A stretch of DNA of 48,889 nt from a virus. Below the pieces are notes generated by a model. That model saw only the letters and a list, made by a program, of their open reading frames with translations, was not told the DNA's origin and ran no database searches. Positions within the stretch are counted from its first letter, which is position 1, and each line of letters begins with the position of its first letter. Positions 31,919 to 48,889 of the stretch are shown in pieces. The DNA lies in the IMG/VR virus record IMGVR_UViG_3300032086_000885, positions 1 through 48,889 of that record; one strand, given 5' to 3'. A program made the translations under genes and the position numbers.

Positions 31919-32001
31919 GTCTATTTCCACTGGAGGTCATTTTCCATCGGAGGTCTCTGGTCATTTTCCACTGGAGCCCCTCTAGTCAATTTCCATCGGA
32001 G
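31919..32001 (+). repeat. Four 17-bp iterons, consensus GTCWWTTTCCAYYGGAG
   Basis: Units at 31919-31935, 31936-31952, 31960-31976 and 31985-32001. The two inner bases alternate CT, TC, CT, TC from unit to unit. All lie in the same direction. A related family of four 18-bp units is at 35291-35500. Iteron groups like this often bind initiators or repressors. Confidence 0.85.
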
Positions 32002-32007
32002 GTCTCC

Positions 32008-32103
32008 CTGGCCAGGCGCCAGGCTAAGATCCCGGCCAGGACCCGGGTCTAGCTCCCGGGTTAGACCCGGGCTAGACTCCTGGCCAGGAGCTAAGATTCG
32101 AGC
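32008..32103. repeat. GC-rich array of eight 12-bp words
   Basis: Cut every 12 bp from 32008 the segment gives eight words, for example CTGGCCAGGCGC, CCGGCCAGGACC, CGGGCTAGACTC and CTGGCCAGGAGC. Position 12 is C in all eight; positions 3-4 are GG in seven. Many words hold CCGG, GGCC or CTAG cores, and 32077-32090 is a 14-bp palindrome. The word family recurs at 35309-35620. Confidence 0.75.
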
Positions 32104-32105
32104 AA

Positions 32106-32138
32106 AGAAAAACCCTAAGCTAAATCAATAGCTTAGGG
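32106..32138 (-). terminator. Terminator of the 35.0-32.1 kb minus-strand operon
   Basis: On the minus strand GCTTAGGG type arms pair: + strand CCCTAAGC (32113-32120) with GCTTAGGG (32131-32138), loop 10 nt, followed on the minus strand by TTTTTCTTTG (32112 downward). It lies just after the last gene of this block (stop at 32146). Confidence 0.85.
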
Positions 32139-33482: not shown

Positions 33483-34977
33483 TGTCTCTATCCTCCTCTC
33501 TTGGTTTATCGTCTAGAAAGTAACAGTCATTGGTTGCGTCAAAGGTATACTTAGTATCAAAGAACGCATTGTGATCCTCGATATTTTCTATAGCTACGTT
33601 ATCGCCATTGTCTAGGCTACGCTTTGAGTCGATATGATAGATCTCACCGCTAAGAGCACAAGTAAACCAACAGTTATCATACTCATCCTGAGAGATATAG
33701 TCGCCACAGACTGTAAGGTGTACGTCCTCATCCTGCCATAGCTCTCCGTCTGTGCATAAGACTGCGTGATTATCGCAGCACATTTCGCACCATTGTTGAG
33801 CAAAACCACTAGCTCGCTGAACCTCCCGACTTCCGTCTATCGGCTCATCCTCACCGCAGTTCTCGCAGTTTATGTAGGTTTCCCAGTAGCACGTTTCACA
33901 CCAACTGTTGTCATCATGGCTGTTATAGTGGACATATCTATCCTCATCGCTAACACCACAACCACAACCTGCACAGGTAAAACGATCCCCAGTAAAGAGT
34001 ACACCGCTATAACTAGAGGCATCTATAGATCCACGTCTAGAAACAACCATATACTTATTACAGTCGGTTAACTCTAACCCTCTAGGATCAAGATCCAAGT
34101 AGGGGGCTATCATACCGTCCATATCGTTAACCTCATTATAGAAGTGAGTTACTAGCAGACAACCTACCCAATCGCTATCAGCTATAGGTAAGCATTTAGC
34201 ACTCTTGAGTTTATCCCAGAGAAACTGCCACGCTTCCTCACTAACCGCATATATAGGCGCAGGTTGAGGCGTTATCTTAGCCCCTGCCCTAGCCACGGCT
34301 ACTACGCTCCGCGCTGCAATTTTACCCTCGGGTGTTTCTAACCAATGCATCTCGAAGTCACCGCTAGCGTATGCCTCGCACGGATGCATAGGTAAATTGT
34401 CAAACTCATAGCGCATACAACTATTGCTCATATGTTTCTTAGACCAATTTGTATCTATATTCTGGGAATCTGCCTGAGTCCAAGAGTAGGCTCTTTTGAA
34501 AGCGCTAGCCTCTTTACTGACGCGATAGGTAAATTCTTGCTCTATAAGTTTAGACTTAACTACGTCAACTAAGTTATCAATCTCAGTATCAGTTAGTACT
34601 GGGAACATCCGCCTAAGCGCACGTCCTATTTTCATAGCCTGTCTAGAGCTTCTACCTTTTCCCCTAGAATCGACCGTAGGCCAAATTACTAGAGCATTAG
34701 GAAATTCTGCATCTACGTTAGGCATGAACACTTTAAGTACCAGTTCAACGCTCTTACGTGAATTCTCACGCCATTCTATGAGCTTCTCTATCTGGTGTTC
34801 CCGATCTTCGCCCCAGTCTAATTGCGAGACTTCACGATATTCTTTCGAATAGTCTCTGACTATGAGTTCGTCTAGGAACATATGCAACCGTCTACGTGTA
34901 CGGCTGCTGAGACCGAGATTGTCTAGGCTAATGCCATCGACCTCCATCCCGGCGAGAGCTTGGTGAAAATCTCTCAT
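33475..34977 (-). CDS. Large Cys-rich protein with C-terminal zinc knuckles
   Basis: 500 residues with a strong TAGGAGG ribosome site. Residues 1-150 are helical and charged. The middle part has NSCMRYEFDNLPMHPCEAY, HWLETPEGKIAARSVVAVAR and APYLDLD. The C-terminal third has repeated Cys pairs (TCAGCGCG, WCETCY, NCENCGED, WCEMCC) spaced like RING- or LIM-type double zinc fingers, followed by acidic segments. No enzyme family is recognised. First gene of the block; an RNA/DNA or protein-binding early protein is a reasonable guess only. Confidence 0.75.
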   Translation of the reverse strand: MRDFHQALAGMEVDGISLDNLGLSSRTRRRLHMFLDELIVRDYSKEYREVSQLDWGEDREHQIEKLIEWRENSRKSVELVLKVFMPNVDAEFPNALVIWPTVDSRGKGRSSRQAMKIGRALRRMFPVLTDTEIDNLVDVVKSKLIEQEFTYRVSKEASAFKRAYSWTQADSQNIDTNWSKKHMSNSCMRYEFDNLPMHPCEAYASGDFEMHWLETPEGKIAARSVVAVARAGAKITPQPAPIYAVSEEAWQFLWDKLKSAKCLPIADSDWVGCLLVTHFYNEVNDMDGMIAPYLDLDPRGLELTDCNKYMVVSRRGSIDASSYSGVLFTGDRFTCAGCGCGVSDEDRYVHYNSHDDNSWCETCYWETYINCENCGEDEPIDGSREVQRASGFAQQWCEMCCDNHAVLCTDGELWQDEDVHLTVCGDYISQDEYDNCWFTCALSGEIYHIDSKRSLDNGDNVAIENIEDHNAFFDTKYTFDATNDCYFLDDKPREEDRDSA

Positions 34978-35164: not shown

Positions 35165-35290
35165 CAATAGGTTACGGTGCTATTTATTCTCTAGTTTGTG
35201 ATCACATATTTCTACCTAGGGGTATTTCTTGGGGCTTTATGCTGCAGCCAGGCCGGGCGCCTAGCGAGTAAAAAAGGTTAGACCTTAGCC

Positions 35291-35500
35291 TATTTCCTAT
35301 CCGGGGTCCAGGCCAGGAGCTTAACCCGGGTCCAGGCCAGGAGCCAGGCCGGGGTCTAACCCGGGAGCCAGGCCAGGAGCCAGGAGACAGCCTCCCCTCA
35401 TTTCCTATCTAGGGTCTAACCCGGGAGCCTGGCCAGGAGCCAGGCGATAGCCTCCCCCTATTTCCTATCGGGGGTCTTAGTTAATTTCCTATCGGGGGTC
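35291..35500 (+). repeat. Four 18-bp iterons, consensus NATTTCCTATCNRGGGTC
   Basis: Units at 35291-35308, 35399-35416, 35459-35476 and 35483-35500, all in the same direction. They match the left-side iterons apart from one inserted T (AATTTCC-ATCGGAGGTC against AATTTCCTATCGGGGGTC). They are interleaved with 12-bp words. Confidence 0.85.
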
Positions 35501-35620
35501 CTGGCTAGAGCCTAAGCCAGGAGCCAGGCCAGGAGCTATGCCGGGAGCGCATACCAGCTCTGGTCTAAGCGCATAGCTAGGATCTTGGCCTAGAGCCTAG
35601 CCTAGAGCTATGCATAGAGC
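35309..35620. repeat. GC-rich arrays of 12-bp words (right side)
   Basis: Seven words fill 35309-35392 in exact phase (CAGGCCAGGAGC four times, CAGGCCGGGGTC, TTAACCCGGGTC, TAACCCGGGAGC and a degenerate one make up the set). Three follow at 35417-35452. Ten fill 35501-35620 in phase (for example TATGCCGGGAGC, TTGGCCTAGAGC, CTAGCCTAGAGC, TATGCATAGAGC), each ending in C. An isolated CAGGCCGGGCGC is at 35249. G+C is far above that of the surroundings. Confidence 0.8.
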
Positions 35621-35667
35621 GCAACCTACCTATGCAAACAAATCGTATCTATTTATGTATTTTTTTG

Positions 35668-35696
35668 TTGCAGGTTAGGATTACATCTGGTACTAC
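35668..35696 (+). promoter_or_regulatory. Plus-strand promoter candidate before the structured RNA
   Basis: TTGCAG (35668-35673), 17 bp, TACTAC (35691-35696), with TGG before the -10. Predicted start near 35703 coincides with the first base of the long stem of the RNA at 35702-35791. The TGGTAC core resembles the minus-strand promoter at 35062. Moderate strength only. Confidence 0.4.
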
Positions 35697-35701
35697 TAGT
35701 G

Positions 35702-35791
35702 TATGGACAGGGAACCAATATAGGTTCTAGGATCAGCGAGATCCGCATCTGTCAGTCTAGTAAGCCTAGGCCGAAGGGCAACCTGTCCATA
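35702..35791 (+). ncRNA. Cloverleaf-like structured RNA candidate
   Basis: The ends pair perfectly over 10 bp: TATGGACAGG (35702-35711) with CCTGTCCATA (35782-35791). Inside are two perfect 5-bp hairpins, GAACC/GGTTC (35712-35727, loop AATATA) and GGATC/GATCC (35730-35744, loop AGCGA), and a third helix CTAG/CTAG (35757-35769) or, alternatively, GCC/GGC pairing at 35764-35779. It is not a canonical tRNA. It ends 38 nt before the small gene at 35830, so it may be a leader element or an independent RNA. Confidence 0.6.
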
Positions 35792-35829
35792 GTTTCAACT
35801 TAACTCTTACAGACAGAAAGGATTTTATT

Positions 35830-36129
35830 ATGTCTGATTTTTTTGGCGAAAGCCGTATGACCAAGCAACAGCGCAAGCACATTGCTCATGGTACGTTAAC
35901 TAGAATTTGTGCAGAGTTTATCGCTAGCGGTAACTTTCACAAACAACTCGAAGAGGCTGATTACATTGCAGCTCTCAAAGAGAATATGTCAACCAAGCTT
36001 GGTGGTGCAAAACGCGAAGTAATCTTCAAAGCTTATGACGCAGCCATTGCGAAAGCGAAAGCGGACGCAGAGGCGGCAGCAGAGGCGGCAGCAGAGGCGG
36101 CAGCTGAACCCGCTGCCAAAGCAAATTGA
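35830..36129 (+). CDS. Small basic-acidic protein with Ala/Glu repeat tail
   Basis: 99 residues, ribosome site AAAGGA ahead of ATG. N-terminus MSDFFGESRMTKQQRKHIAHG, then a helical core, and a C-terminal tail of AEAAAEAAAEAAAE made from a 12-bp DNA repeat (36066-36102). It is the only plus-strand gene between the two divergent blocks, preceded by the structured RNA and followed by hairpins, and is likely expressed separately. No family recognised. Confidence 0.7.
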   Translation: MSDFFGESRMTKQQRKHIAHGTLTRICAEFIASGNFHKQLEEADYIAALKENMSTKLGGAKREVIFKAYDAAIAKAKADAEAAAEAAAEAAAEPAAKAN

Positions 36130-36276
36130 TCTCTGAGATCTTAAAGAGCAGTGTAAAAGCTGCTCTACTCTTGCTTATCTGGCTAGCCCTATATCTAGGG
36201 CTGCCAGTGGTATCCACCTTGCTGCTATTTGGCAACCCATTTTAACCGTGAGACCCTCGGCATTCTAAGCCGAGGG
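36128..36276 (+). terminator. Row of hairpins after the small gene (structured 3' end)
   Basis: GATCTC-T-GAGATC (36128-36140); AGAGCAG/CTGCTCT (36145-36166); a 12-bp stem with one bulge, CTGGC-T-AGCCCTA with TAGGGCT-GCCAG (36179-36207); and CCCTCGGC/GCCGAGGG (36254-36276). None has a long T-tract. Together they could end transcription, stabilise the mRNA, or be part of a longer RNA. The rest of 36130-36511 holds no gene. Confidence 0.6.
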
Positions 36277-36364
36277 CGTTAAGCCTGGCGTAGCCAACCT
36301 GATTTGTAACATAAGAAAATAGGTTGAGGTATGACAGATTGTCGCACCTACTTGATTTTCCCTC

Positions 36365-43318: not shown

Positions 43319-44589
43319 TGTCAAATTCAGATAAATGGGCTTCTACTAAGAAGCGACAAATGGACAACGATATTTTTACTAGCCCTGCGGAAGCTCGTAG
43401 TAGATCTTTTATGTTAGGTTTTGACGGTGACATTCATACTCATGAAGTTGGTGCTAATGTTTATTACATGCCTGCAAAAACGCATGAAGAATATCTCAAC
43501 TATCACAAAGATCTTGCAGGTATTAAAGAGATTCCGCAAGAAGAGCAGAAAGAAGAATCAGACTTATTAGCTCGTATCCTTTCTGCGGTTATTGAACAGG
43601 TAACTAAAGTAGAGACTAGTACCTTAGCTTCTAAGGTAAAAGAACATAATGCTAAACATGGTAGCAAGGGTAAGGTAACTACCTCTATGCTACGTCAGGT
43701 TTATAACAGAGGTGTAGGCGCATATAAGACAAATCCTGGATCGGTTCGTCCTAACGTCTCATCTCCCGAACAGTGGGCAATGGCTCGTGTCAACAATTTC
43801 CTACGTACCATCCGTACAGGTCGCTTCCGTAGTGGTAAGCATGATACTGATCTCCTACCTTCTAAACATCCTCTTAGTACAAGGAAGTCACAAGTATGGG
43901 ATGGAGGCGATCTACCAACACAGGACCAGATTGATAAAGCAGATAAGCCCCTAAATAAACCCTTCAGACTTCCTGCAGGATCAAGCAAGAAGTTTGGAGT
44001 TTACGTAAAGGACGGAGACAAAACCAAGAAAGTTACTTTTGGTGATCCTAATATGGAAATCCGTCGAGATGACCCAAAGGCTAGAGCTAATTTCCGCAGC
44101 AGACATTCTTGCGATACCGCATCAGATAAGACCTCTGCTCGTTATTGGTCTTGCCGTATGTGGGAGAAGGGTAGATCAGTGAGTGATTTAACAAAGGATA
44201 TCGAAGGCCAAATCCTAAAGACTGACGATGAACAGCGTATAGTCTACGGATGGGCTTCCGTCATTACTGAGAAAGGTGAACGAGTAGTTGACCGTCAGGG
44301 TGACGTAATCGAACCAGACACGTTAGTTAAAGCCGTGAATGACTTCATGGAAAATGTACGTGTTGGTAAAACAATGCACACAGGCGAACAGACAGGAATG
44401 GTTATTCATTCCCTACCAATCACCAAAGAGATTGGGGACAGCCTTGGCATTCAGAGTGACCGAGAAGGATGGGTCGTAGCTTATAAAGTCTATGATGAAG
44501 AAGTCTGGAAGATGGTCAAATCTGGTGAACTTGCGGCCTTCAGCATTGGCGGTCGTGCGATTAAGGAGAAGATAGATGAACCTTCTTAA
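43318..44589 (+). CDS. Prohead protease, XkdF-like, with DUF5824-like N-terminal extension
   Basis: 423 residues. Residues about 105-190 contain RGVGAYKTNPGSVRPNVSS and EQWAMARVNNFL, the DUF5824 pattern. Residues 245-282 have RSRHSCDTASDKTSARYWSC with paired Cys and Trp. The protease domain is 300-423: RIVYGWASV, VDRQGDVIEP, TMHTGEQTG (His354), AAFSIGG (Ser409). The final strand of the fold is missing and appears at the start of the overlapping next gene. It matures the capsid after assembly. Only this copy is complete. Confidence 0.85.
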   Translation: MSNSDKWASTKKRQMDNDIFTSPAEARSRSFMLGFDGDIHTHEVGANVYYMPAKTHEEYLNYHKDLAGIKEIPQEEQKEESDLLARILSAVIEQVTKVETSTLASKVKEHNAKHGSKGKVTTSMLRQVYNRGVGAYKTNPGSVRPNVSSPEQWAMARVNNFLRTIRTGRFRSGKHDTDLLPSKHPLSTRKSQVWDGGDLPTQDQIDKADKPLNKPFRLPAGSSKKFGVYVKDGDKTKKVTFGDPNMEIRRDDPKARANFRSRHSCDTASDKTSARYWSCRMWEKGRSVSDLTKDIEGQILKTDDEQRIVYGWASVITEKGERVVDRQGDVIEPDTLVKAVNDFMENVRVGKTMHTGEQTGMVIHSLPITKEIGDSLGIQSDREGWVVAYKVYDEEVWKMVKSGELAAFSIGGRAIKEKIDEPS

Positions 44590-45358
44590 GCAATTAGAGC
44601 TTGACGAATTATCTTTGGTGGATCGCCCTGCTAATGCATCTGCCAAGGTTGCTCTGTACAAGCGTGACAATTCCGAAGAGGATAACATGACAGAAACAGT
44701 CGAAAAGATGTCTGATGACATGAAAGCAAAGCTCAAGCCATACATGGATAAAGGTATGTCTGAGCAAGAGGCTATGAAAGCCTATAACATGGACATGAAA
44801 AAGTCCGATGAAGAAGAAGTAGATCTGAGCCTAGAGGTTGAAGTCGAAGCACTAAAAGCTGACAACGAAAAACTTCGTAAGGCTCTTATTGAAAATGGCT
44901 TTGTAATTAAAGCTGATGAAATAGCAAAGAAAGAAGAAGTAGAGACAATCGAAGTAAGTGGAGAGATGGTTGTTAAATCAGATATCCCTGCTCCTGTCTT
45001 GAAAGCTCTTGAAGAAGCTGCAGTAGAAAAGCGTCAGTCTGAGCTACGTAAATCTGCTGAAGCTGAATTGCCTCACTTTGACGTTGAAGTTGCTATGCAA
45101 CTACTTGACGTTGTTAAGGGTGACGAAAAAGTCCTAGAAGCACTTAAAGGAGCTGATGCTGCTTTTGCTGCTGCTATGGATGAGGTTGGTGAGAAATCAG
45201 TTGATGCTGATATGCTAGACCCACAAACTAAATTGGATAAGATGGTAGAGGCTCATGCTGCAGAGCATGGTGTCAACAAATACACTGCTTTTGATGCCAT
45301 CTCTAAAACAGCAGAGGGTAAAGCCCTTATTGCTAAAACTTATGAAAAGGATGAGTAA
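44576..45358 (+). CDS. Capsid scaffold-like protein (allele B)
   Basis: 260 residues, with the same 14-bp overlap with the protease and the same AAGGAG site as allele A. The N-terminal SLVDRPANASAKVAL segment and the C-terminal 140 residues are conserved. Residues about 32-105 differ in length and sequence: allele A has AYKMTEEQEKNLDNLPPAVRAK, this one has TVEKMSDDMKAKLKPYMDKG. The change lies in the acidic coiled-coil part, which can tolerate length variation. Confidence 0.75.
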   Translation: MNLLKQLELDELSLVDRPANASAKVALYKRDNSEEDNMTETVEKMSDDMKAKLKPYMDKGMSEQEAMKAYNMDMKKSDEEEVDLSLEVEVEALKADNEKLRKALIENGFVIKADEIAKKEEVETIEVSGEMVVKSDIPAPVLKALEEAAVEKRQSELRKSAEAELPHFDVEVAMQLLDVVKGDEKVLEALKGADAAFAAAMDEVGEKSVDADMLDPQTKLDKMVEAHAAEHGVNKYTAFDAISKTAEGKALIAKTYEKDE

Positions 45359-45360
45359 TT

Positions 45361-45732
45361 ATGGCTGTACAAGAATCTCGTGATACACGTACATTCATTG
45401 CAGGAGAGGACCTATCTTCTTCTCAATTTAAATTCGTAACATTGGAATCAGATGGTCAAGTTGACCTAGCTGACTCCGCAGGTGAAAACTGCATGGGTGT
45501 AGTTATAAATGACCCTGCATCTGGTAGTGAAGCAACTGTTGTTGTAGGTGGTAAAACTGTAGTTACTGCAGGTGGAACCATTGCAGCAGGAGCATCTGTA
45601 GCTACTGACGCCTCTGGGGACGCTGTAACTGCTTCCACAGGAAATATTGTAATGGGTTACGCTTTGGAGGCAGGGGTTGACGGTCAAGTTATCGCAATCG
45701 AATTAATCCAAGGTGGTAACGCTGCTGCGTAA
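45361..45732 (+). CDS. Head decoration protein-like (allele B)
   Basis: 123 residues against 129 in allele A. Differences are concentrated in two surface-like segments (DLADSAGENCMGVVI, and the shorter DASGDAVTASTGNIV), while the framework strands and the N-terminus (MAVQESRDTRTFIAGEDLSSSQFKF) are kept. Variation at exposed loops of a capsid surface protein is plausible; the role is inferred as for the left copy. Confidence 0.65.
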   Translation: MAVQESRDTRTFIAGEDLSSSQFKFVTLESDGQVDLADSAGENCMGVVINDPASGSEATVVVGGKTVVTAGGTIAAGASVATDASGDAVTASTGNIVMGYALEAGVDGQVIAIELIQGGNAAA

Positions 45733-45758
45733 CCTGTAGATAAGAAGGAATAACAACA

Positions 45759-46769
45759 ATGCCTATGTTAACCGCATCTCAGGTACATATAGATCAGCCG
45801 CTTACAAACTTAACGGTAGCGTACCTACAAGACCAAAATAACTTTATCGCTGATAAGGTTTTCCCAAACGTAGCTGTAGACAAGAAGACTAACAAGTACT
45901 ACATCTACGACCGCGAGAACTTCTTTCGCAATGAAGTAACTGCTCGTGCGCCTCGTACACGTTCACAAAGAATCGGTATGAGCCTCTCAACAGCTACTTA
46001 CACTGCTGAAGTTCGTTCATTGTCAACAGACTTTGACTTCGAAACACTAGCTAACGCTGACACAGCTTTGGACATCCGAAGAGGTGCATCAGAAATGCTA
46101 ACACACAATCTCTTGATTGATCGTGAAAGCCGTTGGATGTCAACATTCTTTGGTACAAGTATCTGGACTACAGAATATGACGGTGTTGCAAATGCAGATA
46201 ACGATACTGCAACAGAAGTCACACAGTGGGATGACTATACAAACTCAACTCCAATCGTTGACGTAACTGCTGCTCGAAGAGCAATGCAAAAAGCATCTGG
46301 TGGCTTCAAGCCAAACAAAATGGTTGTAACTCGTGACGTTCACGATACACTAGTCAACCACCCAGACGTACTTGCACGTATCAACGGTGGCGCAACTGTA
46401 ACCAACACTGCTTTGGTGACACAAGCTAAACTAGCAGAAATCTTTGAGGTTGCTGAGTACTACATCGTAGACGCAATCGAAAACTCTTCTGCAGAAGGTG
46501 TAGCAGAGTCACTAGACTTTGTAGCAACTAAGAAAGCTGCATTGTACTACGCTCCTGCATCTGCAGGGTTGATGGTTCCATCAGCAGGTTACAACTTCAC
46601 ATGGAATGAGTTAGATAATGCATCTGGCTATGGTATCGACATTCGTTCATACTCTGGCGATTTCCTACGTGTAGAAGGTGTTGCAGAACTCCTAGAAGCA
46701 AACATGGCTTACGACCAAAAGGTTGTAGGTGCTGACCTAGGTGTATTCTTCAACACAATCTTGTCATAA
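45759..46769 (+). CDS. Major capsid protein (right copy)
   Basis: 336 residues, the same as the left copy except Val for Ile near residue 19. Silent differences stop at the base equivalent to 1798; the rest of the gene was identical where compared. See the entry at 1583. Confidence 0.85.
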   Translation: MPMLTASQVHIDQPLTNLTVAYLQDQNNFIADKVFPNVAVDKKTNKYYIYDRENFFRNEVTARAPRTRSQRIGMSLSTATYTAEVRSLSTDFDFETLANADTALDIRRGASEMLTHNLLIDRESRWMSTFFGTSIWTTEYDGVANADNDTATEVTQWDDYTNSTPIVDVTAARRAMQKASGGFKPNKMVVTRDVHDTLVNHPDVLARINGGATVTNTALVTQAKLAEIFEVAEYYIVDAIENSSAEGVAESLDFVATKKAALYYAPASAGLMVPSAGYNFTWNELDNASGYGIDIRSYSGDFLRVEGVAELLEANMAYDQKVVGADLGVFFNTILS

Positions 46770-46780
46770 GGAGTAGGTGA

Positions 46781-47179
46781 ATGACCCGACCACCATTTCA
46801 ATATGATAAGCCACTCTTCGTTAGAAATCCACAGGGATTGCTGATGAATGGTAAGCGTTATGCAAAAGGTGATCTCGTTCCTTGGAAGGAGCGAGGTCTA
46901 CCTAAAGCAAACATTGAGCGTTTGTATAATGAGCACCATCTACATCATAACGAAGAGTTGGAAGAAGTAGCTAAACCTTCCGTAGGAGACGGCTTAGATG
47001 AAATGACTGGAGAACAGTTAAACATCTTAGTCAAGACTATAAACGAAAAGGTTAAAGCTAAGACTTCAAGTAACTCAGAGTATGACCGCAAGAGATGTCG
47101 AATCTCTAAGGTAAAAGATAAACAAGCAGGTTTGATTCGCTCCTGGCGAAGGAACTACGGACACTTAGAGGCTGAATAA
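46781..47179 (+). CDS. Unknown protein after capsid gene (right copy)
   Basis: Identical protein to that at 2605-3003; 132 residues with a basic C-terminus. Confidence 0.7.
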   Translation: MTRPPFQYDKPLFVRNPQGLLMNGKRYAKGDLVPWKERGLPKANIERLYNEHHLHHNEELEEVAKPSVGDGLDEMTGEQLNILVKTINEKVKAKTSSNSEYDRKRCRISKVKDKQAGLIRSWRRNYGHLEAE

Positions 47180-47643
47180 TGGCTTGGACATATGACGAAA
47201 CTAATCTAGTTACTACTACGGCTGCAGGTCGATTAAATGTGGTAAGACTTCTAATAGGTGACACTGACACTAACGATCAGCTCATTAAGAACGAAGAGAT
47301 TACTTTTGCCTTGTCCCAAGCTAATGATAACGTCTACTTTGCTGCTTCTTGGTCAGCCAGAACTATATCTGCACAGTTTGCCAGAAGAGTTACAACAAAA
47401 CTAGATGGGGCTTTATCGGCAGAGTATAGCGACTTAGCTAAACAGTATAAAGCCCTGTCTGATGACCTTCGTGAGCAAGGTCAAAAGTATTCAATGACAT
47501 CCTCAAGTTTAAAAGCAGGTGGTATTTCTAAGGCTGCAATAGATGCAGCTCAGGCTCTTACTGATCGACCCTCTGCTGCTTTCTCTAAAGGACAGTTTGA
47601 CAACCCACCTAATGATAGTCAGTACATTCGGGATTATGACTAA
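47179..47643 (+). CDS. Head-tail adaptor protein (right copy)
   Basis: Identical protein to that at 3003-3467, with the LLIGDTD N-terminal signature. Confidence 0.65.
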   Translation: MAWTYDETNLVTTTAAGRLNVVRLLIGDTDTNDQLIKNEEITFALSQANDNVYFAASWSARTISAQFARRVTTKLDGALSAEYSDLAKQYKALSDDLREQGQKYSMTSSSLKAGGISKAAIDAAQALTDRPSAAFSKGQFDNPPNDSQYIRDYD

Positions 47644-47996
47644 TGGGCTTCAGAGCATACGACCTCTTAAAGCTCGTAGAAGAGCATGGAGAGACTCTTA
47701 CACTACGTAAGAAAGCTTATGGTGACTACGACCCTGCTACTAGTGCAGTAGGAAGTACCACTACCACCGATTACGCTATGACTGCATACTTCTATAACTA
47801 TGAACTAGGTGTATCTGACTTAAATAACGTAGAGAGTGGTATGAGAAAATGTCTTATTTCCGCTCTAGGGTTAGCCGTAAGTCCTGATACAGAAGATTTA
47901 ATCGTAGGTAATGGTGATCCAGTAAATATCATTAACGTGCTTACAATGTATTCTGCAGGTCAAGCTATTTGTTATATCTGTGACGTGAGGGAATAA
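47643..47996 (+). CDS. Head-closure-like protein (right copy)
   Basis: Identical protein to that at 3467-3820. Confidence 0.55.
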   Translation: MGFRAYDLLKLVEEHGETLTLRKKAYGDYDPATSAVGSTTTTDYAMTAYFYNYELGVSDLNNVESGMRKCLISALGLAVSPDTEDLIVGNGDPVNIINVLTMYSAGQAICYICDVRE

Positions 47997-48376
47997 TGCA
48001 GGTTACAGTAAAAAAAGCTCGTATCGCAAAGAAAAGCAAAAGACTTGAGCAAGCTGCAAGAAATCGTATATACAAAGCGCTAGATCAAAGTATAGATTTC
48101 TTAAGTTTAAGTGTACCTGTAGATACAGGAGCTTATGCTAATTCTATGCACCTCAACACAAGAGGGAATAGATCAGGGAGCGGAGAAACCTCTCGCAGAA
48201 AAGAAAGAGGAGTTGCCGCTGACTTAGTTCTTAATGAGATGGAAACTAGACTTAGATCTAGCTTAGAAACCATAGATCCCTTAGATGGGGCTACTATAGT
48301 AAATAATGCACCTCATGCAAAATATGTTGAACTTAGACACGGCATATTTGATCAGTTAAGGAATGTGTTAACATAA
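47996..48376 (+). CDS. HK97 gp10-like neck protein (right copy)
   Basis: Identical protein to that at 3820-4200, with VPVDTGAYANSMHL. Confidence 0.8.
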   Translation: MQVTVKKARIAKKSKRLEQAARNRIYKALDQSIDFLSLSVPVDTGAYANSMHLNTRGNRSGSGETSRRKERGVAADLVLNEMETRLRSSLETIDPLDGATIVNNAPHAKYVELRHGIFDQLRNVLT

Positions 48377-48792
48377 TGGCTTCTATCTATCATCACATAC
48401 GTCGAGCATTAGAAACAAAACTTGACACTGAAAATATAGCTGATGTTGCCTACGAAAATGTAGCTTTCAGCCCTACAACTGGTACTAGCTTTTTACGACC
48501 AGTTTTTACCCCGACAATTCGTAGACCTTCCGTAATGGGTACAGGCCCTCAGCAAAGATATCAAGGACTATTTAGGGTTCTTTGTCATGCTGCCGAAGGT
48601 ACTGGACCAAACACTGCTGATGACTTAGCAAACACTGTAATAGAAGCTTTTGAAGCAACTACAGACATTAGTTATAACACAGGTTCAGAAACTTTACTGG
48701 TATCTATAGATTATGCAGAACGCTCTGTAGGTTTGTTAGATACCCCTTGGTACATCGTTCCAGTTAATATTGGCTGGTACATATTTAAATAG
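48376..48792 (+). CDS. Tail terminator protein (right copy)
   Basis: Identical protein to that at 4200-4616. Confidence 0.7.
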   Translation: MASIYHHIRRALETKLDTENIADVAYENVAFSPTTGTSFLRPVFTPTIRRPSVMGTGPQQRYQGLFRVLCHAAEGTGPNTADDLANTVIEAFEATTDISYNTGSETLLVSIDYAERSVGLLDTPWYIVPVNIGWYIFK

Positions 48793-48802
48793 GAGAATAT
48801 AA

Positions 48803-48889
48803 ATGGCCTTCGCACAGGGTTCACGTTCCACACTATCTTTCTTAGCAGAGAGTACTTTCGGTACAACACCTGCAGGAAACTTCCAAAAC
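48803..48889 (+). CDS. Major tail protein (right copy, cut by contig end)
   Basis: First 29 codons of the tube gene, identical to 4627-4713; the window ends inside the gene. AGGAG lies just upstream. Confidence 0.8.
   Translation, partial: MAFAQGSRSTLSFLAESTFGTTPAGNFQN

Follow-up and report, generated by a model that had tools for sequence, protein, structure and literature searches.

A candidate structured leader RNA at the predicted start of a two-gene phage transcript, and its apparent exchange between near-identical genomes

In the IMG/VR virus record IMGVR_UViG_3300032086_000885, whose 48,889 bases are called the window below, a structured RNA of 90 nt lies on the plus strand (35702-35791) at the predicted start of a transcript. 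The best reading is a structured phage leader RNA absent from Rfam 15, and hence an unlisted family. As to its function, which we infer, the evidence leaves evenly balanced whether it acts in cis, as a 5' leader that sets the expression of a unit encoding proteins of 99 and 39 aa and is exchanged by recombination. The exchange of alleles is its most unusual feature and lifts it above the routine: two natural alleles in near-identical genomes amount to a natural experiment on a promoter-RNA swap of ~120 bp. Little has been charted of the non-coding RNAs of uncultured marine phages, and selection, should it underlie the exchange, would suggest a contest at the RNA level in the ocean.

Results

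The window encodes recognisable TerL, portal, DNA polymerase A and DnaB-type helicase proteins. The nearest isolate found is Roseobacter phage (roseophage) CRP-6 (68% in TerL, 60% in the polymerase), which PMC6918029 presents as the representative of a new phage group infecting the RCA lineage. The RNA is flanked by a leftward gene, which starts at 34,977, and by the packaging genes, which run rightward. The ends of the contig (1-4713 and about 44250-48889) repeat each other inexactly, at 92-96% identity; the unit is therefore probably a genome of about 44 kb, circular or permuted, assembled across two strains, the other explanation being a diverged partial duplication.

The predicted fold is enclosed by a stem, P1, in which 35702-35711 (UAUGGACAGG) pairs with 35782-35791 (CCUGUCCAUA) at 10/10 positions. 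Within it stand hairpin A (35712-35716/35723-35727) and hairpin B (35730-35734/35740-35744), of 5 bp each, and helix C (35755-35760/35766-35771), which irregular pairs extend in the MFE structure; an invariant GCCGAAGG occupies 35770-35777. A preliminary description of this DNA had reported these same helices in the 90 nt, at the right coordinates, and had proposed to abandon the element should it fold no better than shuffled controls. Its MFE is -38.2, as against -22.0 +/- 3.0 for shuffled sequences (z -5.35; 0/200 shuffles equal). The minus strand folds nearly equally well (-37.7), as expected because the stems are paired. Among 985 stretches of 90 nt, 984 of them spaced 45 nt apart across about positions 2-44,250 and one being the target itself, the leader RNA had the lowest z (-6.0; runner-up -4.7).

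ARAGORN detected no tRNA or tmRNA gene in the window, and no Rfam 15 family reached the gathering threshold in the window or in 15 related loci. At E<=10, Rfam gave no match for 35600-35840, and for three homologous loci (L079, L011 and L002, see below) low-scoring matches only, none convincing. These results agree with the earlier opinion that the RNA is no tRNA and shows no recognisable riboswitch or ribozyme core. The stretch GCCGAAGG...GCAA resembles a motif of the glycine riboswitch. This candidate was rejected, since the RNA has no Rfam match at E<=10 despite the resemblance; the genes downstream differ, too, in having no known link to glycine. DNA patterns had no matches in GTDB genomes, annotated phages had no match over the RNA, and no earlier report of it was found in the PMC literature, of which our coverage was partial and not exhaustive.

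A promoter layout stands directly upstream. A conserved block (35629-35673; CCTATGCAAACAAATCGTATCT...TTTTTTTGTTGCAG), identical at 40/46 positions in L014, L019 and L079, includes a -35 hexamer TTGCAG (35668-35673). The stretch behind it (35674-35702) takes in a 17-nt spacer and a TG-extended -10 hexamer TACTAC (35691-35696) and leads to the predicted +1 (~35703, an A), inside the first two bases of P1 and in agreement with the preliminary placing of the start at the stem. The promoter call rests on conservation and on hexamers picked by eye; a generic scan did not list the site (35668-35696), and its -10 is without the final T. Exact-pattern matches to the upstream block occur in 5 contigs, and a TTGnnn-17-hexamer layout, again with hexamers picked by eye and a predicted start, in 12/12 leaders compared. 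When +1 is set seven bases past the -10, a base within the first 5 nt is paired in the MFE structure of 12/12 leaders. This is weak support for a buried 5' end, because random stretches reach 53-63% and the leaders are related.

The same RNA is present in IMGVR_UViG_3300031841_002905 (L003/L004), which matches the window at 99.8% identity across 4,586 bases, and diverged copies, with 84-85% identity to the window, are present in L014, L019 and L079. Together these make up class I, represented by 4 sequences in the fold comparison. Between the window and the three diverged loci, the block from -74 to -29 is 87% identical, the spacer 39-46%, the sequence farther upstream 51-55%, the first gene 47-52% and TerS 74-77%; most flanks of the RNA are thus close to noise. 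Judged by these identities, the non-coding region contains two conserved islands, the RNA and the -35 block, and the class I sequence is invariant well past the helices. Model R1, built on class I with structure S1 (the cloverleaf), found only class I in 66 sources, in 5 rows of which L080 duplicates L014. It gave no match at E<=10 to L002 or L011, none in parts L122 and L123 of CRP-6 (about 14.7 of 44.9 kb, the matching region included), and none in 38 other loci from the IMG/VR pattern search; further pattern matches there (e.g. L081) were judged chance or coding.

At the same site, L002 (class II) and L011 (class III; identical in L012) have the same T-run block, followed by otherwise different sequence in which an AUG still marks the predicted start and a CGAAGG motif recurs. 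Their 5' and 3' ends are complementary through sequence partly or wholly unlike class I; per 1000 shuffles, 13 (L002) and 18 (L011) are equally good, compared with 0 for the window and 26 for L014. This favours a closing stem in L002 and L011, where the ends were picked knowing the stem, a choice that itself favours it. The fold of L002 is modest (z -1.69 and -2.42, with slightly different ends) and that of L011 not significant (z -0.15 to -1.34, three choices of ends), and the closing stem of L011 would start before the predicted transcription start. As R1 misses both, these classes are tied to class I only by position, promoter block, CGAAGG and end pairing, by which homology is likely. A hairpin GNC-GAAGG-GNC common to all classes was considered and rejected, its pair probability, about 0.9 in L011, falling to 0.2 in L002 and to 0.02 in both the window and L014. 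Six relatives (L007, L009, L015, L020, L021 and L022) were read by eye and show a short leader in its place, with no such RNA, the promoter having been laid out for all of them except L007; the RNA is therefore dispensable.

Across the four class I sequences, the pairs of S1, in which 5' GACAG pairs with the 3' end, are formed in 95.2% of cells. The preliminary description had named a lack of covariation in homologues as a second ground for dropping the element; hairpin A has 3/5 pairs changed on both sides. The pairs of B and C are invariant, hence uninformative. In P1, 8 pairs never change and the remaining 2 are disrupted in part of the set, with an A-C mismatch in 3/3 relatives (L014, L019 and L079) and a second mismatch (A-A) in 2/3. 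The covariation score was reached by 6/500 column shuffles, and we regard the support as modest because only four related sequences are involved. The RNA is thus a 5' UTR structure beyond chance, conserved with covariation (in hairpin A, within the 4 sequences of class I), as is expected of a structured leader.

Unconstrained RNAalifold gave another consensus, S2, formed in all four class I sequences, in which GACAG (35706-35710) pairs with an internal CUGUC (35749-35753) and hairpin D (35776-35780/35784-35788) accompanies A, B and C. Bare-fold energies favour S1 over S2 in the window (-34.2 and -28.2); the order is reversed in L014 (-29.4/-32.1), L019 (-25.1/-32.1) and L079 (-27.7/-34.8). With extra pairs allowed, S1 lies below S2 by 0.4 kcal/mol in L014, and S2 lies below S1 by 2.0 kcal/mol in L019; in L079 both are beaten by a third fold, which lies 1.3 below S2. 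On these predictions we regard the cloverleaf as the favoured fold of the window RNA and, for its relatives, as one of two leading candidates; the cloverleaf first proposed stands for the window, while the consensus of the relatives differs and their P1 is broken at 1-2 pairs in every case. Pairing of CUGUC with a CAGACAG before the ribosome-binding site (RBS) was rejected as a general mechanism, since, by eye, the window permits it whereas L014, L019 and L079 do not.

L002 aligns with the window from about 33,397, and up to 37,700 (~4.3 kb) the two differ by 49 mismatches. The two 100-base bins covering promoter and RNA account for 37 of these and also contain 24 gap positions; everything else contributes 12. 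By segment, identity is 321/326 upstream, 46/46 in the -35 block, 19/27 in spacer and -10, 39/68 plus 22 gap positions in the RNA, 37/37 with one gap in the next 38 nt, and 290/292 in the gene. As the mismatches are concentrated in the -10 and the RNA, a tract of ~120 bp (35674-35796) appears to have been replaced in L002, or to have evolved far faster. The L002 allele is known from a single contig (n=1), which leaves a small chance of an assembly error. From about 37,700, in TerL, L002 turns to diverged sequence again, and we therefore take recombination to be common in the region. L019, independently, is a recombinant as well: it matches L014 up to a crossover in the 3' half of the RNA and L079 from there on. 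The boundaries of the cassette fall within conserved blocks, and homologous recombination between conserved islands would be the plain explanation of the exchange; selection for new alleles is possible. It is quite unlikely, in our view, that the RNAs are a new family serving as exchangeable specificity cassettes, structured RNAs being swapped with the -10 region at the same site within one phage population because their recogniser (a defence sensor or superinfection-control factor) varies between hosts or rival phages.

The RNA is followed by the small gene that had been noted behind it, which encodes 99 aa (35830-36129). Next come a gene for a hydrophobic, probably membrane-spanning peptide of 39 aa (36126-36245; TTG start; it overlaps the stop codon of the preceding gene) and a strong hairpin of 8 bp without a T run (36254-36276), possibly the end or a processing point of the unit. 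Further low-z folds (about -3.7 to -3.9) occur at 36092-36316, over the 3' end of the two-gene unit. The 99-aa protein has no PHROG match and no Pfam match above cut-off, and outside relatives looked for in GTDB genomes and annotated phages were not found. Its family, shared with L014, L019, L079, L011 and L025, follows all 6 distinct RNAs; the first genes of the six short-leader relatives are of other kinds, not seen with the RNA. In L025 the family gene is present, inverted and without the RNA. The 39-aa peptide has counterparts in L014, L019 and L079, where the order of the unit is comparable, as it is in L015, which is without the RNA.

The RBS of the 99-aa gene lies in the loop of a hairpin (35810-35836) whose stem, CAGACA (35810-35815) with UGUCUG (35831-35836), covers the U and G of the AUG. 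The first gene has its RBS in a hairpin loop in L002, L011, L009, L007 and L025 too, with a stem that pairs the AUG partly or wholly. The stability of these hairpins is ordinary (-4.0 to -7.0, control mean -4.9 for 39 other window genes). Mean pairing of the three AUG bases is >=0.9 in 4/13 leaders compared with 3/39 other window genes, an excess that is only suggestive. The hairpins hint at translation control generally, with no specific tie to the RNA. In L009 (2660-2692) and L007 (about 1044-1079), sequence near the leader's 5' end can, by eye, base-pair across the RBS with the start codon, with a compensatory change between the two.

Discussion

In the proposed cis mechanism, host RNA polymerase would start at ~35703, so that the first 90 nt of the mRNA form the leader fold, and a 5' end buried in the stem would slow 5'-end-dependent decay. 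The choice between S1 and S2, upstream of the RBS-holding hairpin, would set the output of the 99-aa/39-aa unit, the balance perhaps being shifted by a host or phage protein (e.g. the 99-aa product) or by translation itself. Promoter and RNA would move between phages as a cassette that recombines in the conserved islands. Structure, promoter layout, homologues, cassette difference and the two competing predicted folds are computed, and to these we add by inference the start site, the effects on stability and translation, and any ligand. We favour the cis leader because the RNA has the lowest z of 985, its stem sits at the predicted +1, and its 84-85% identity compares with 39-55% for spacer, first gene and the sequence farther upstream. 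The covariation of hairpin A, the S1/S2 energies, the complementary ends, the RBS hairpins and the constant first-gene family argue in the same direction. Against it stand the imperfect P1 of 3/4 class I sequences, the six relatives without the RNA, the first gene found without it in L025, and the ordinary stability of the RBS hairpins. 5'-terminal stabilisers of the ompA type, which are simple stem-loops, are like the window RNA in having a stem that begins at the (here predicted) first base of the mRNA; the window RNA differs in being multi-branched and conserved in primary sequence.

A trans-acting or processed RNA of ~90 nt, serving as host-factor decoy, counter-defence or immunity target and with alleles swapped under selection, is unlikely on balance. 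It would fit the replacement of an allele between near-identical genomes with little else nearby altered, the invariance of class I well outside the helices, and the dispensability of the RNA in relatives. Exchange is also what simple recombination between conserved islands predicts, though, and no terminator is listed directly after the RNA. Antisense immunity RNAs (P4 CI / P1 c4 type) have a complementary target in the same genome; both strands of bases 1-44,250 of the window lack any exact complementary target of at least 11 nt, which counts against the trans-acting reading and led us to reject this type, although a shorter or imperfect target may exist. The cabRNA of staphylococcal phages, mapped in PMC10686824 to a 400-nt region from terS into terL, is likewise a structured phage RNA in the terminase neighbourhood. 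The window RNA differs in being a non-coding leader of 90 nt that precedes TerS by about 1 kb, with no known immune link.

We give little credence to a put-like antiterminator that would, as nascent RNA, modify host RNA polymerase to pass the hairpin (36254-36276) and continue into the packaging genes. The put RNA of HK022 binds the zinc-binding domain of RNA polymerase and suppresses terminators. According to PMC9378689, putL of HK022 has about 70 nt and two stem-loops and lies just after an early promoter. The window RNA resembles it in size and place, as a short structured RNA right behind a phage promoter and made by the host polymerase, and by analogy its action from the nascent transcript is conceivable. 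The strong hairpin, and about 540 nt without recognised gene before TerS, would also suit such a role. The predicted folds are multi-branched, however, with three helices enclosed by a closing stem or else the multi-helix alternative, and not two long stem-loops; membership was rejected on this point, the position fitting. No T-run terminator was seen to accompany the window RNA, the hairpin being without a T run after it. Counterpart hairpins follow the unit in L014, L019 and L079, but also in L015, which is without the RNA (by eye), and a TTGACA/TATATG-like promoter stands just upstream of TerS in L014, L019 and L079 (by eye).

Equally doubtful is a leader-peptide attenuator, in which ribosomes on a frame of 5-8 codons opening at the predicted +1 would shift the RNA between S1 and S2. 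The helices are mutually exclusive, and an AUG stands 6-7 bases past the -10 in 6/6 distinct RNAs. In class I and L002 this AUG is also part of P1, which would by itself account for its conservation, and any AUG meets a stop soon. The frames, read by eye (MDREPI in the window, MVKII in L002, MPPAI in L011, MDRGTRGS in L014/L019, MDRGPRWP in L079), are alike in their first residues and little beyond, and have no test codon in common. Finally, it is improbable that the RNA is conserved only because it serves as a recombination island or descends from a recent ancestor, and has little function at the RNA level: the crossover of L019 inside the RNA and the cassette boundaries in conserved blocks agree with it, but the compensatory pairs of hairpin A and the exceptional folding energy are unexpected of a mere homology block.

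Imperfect G+C-rich repeats (GGGTCTAACCCGGGAGC, CCAGGCCAGGAGCC, TTTCCTATCGGGGG) occur in two non-coding stretches of the window (35231-35620 and 31960-32110), possibly as a replication origin or regulator sites; within the second, 31997-32086 has the lowest energy among the stretches tested (-58.2 kcal/mol). Repeats of TTTCCNATC are present near the matching place in L007, L009, L011, L014 and L015 too, and, by eye, the matching divergent region of CRP-6 (L122, 60-420) has repeats of its own, around GTGACATTYTTGCAAC and TTTTCCATCGGAGGG. A terminator-like G+C-rich hairpin followed by seven T, again seen by eye, stands upstream of TerS in the relatives L037 (about 180-205), L038, L040 and L068.
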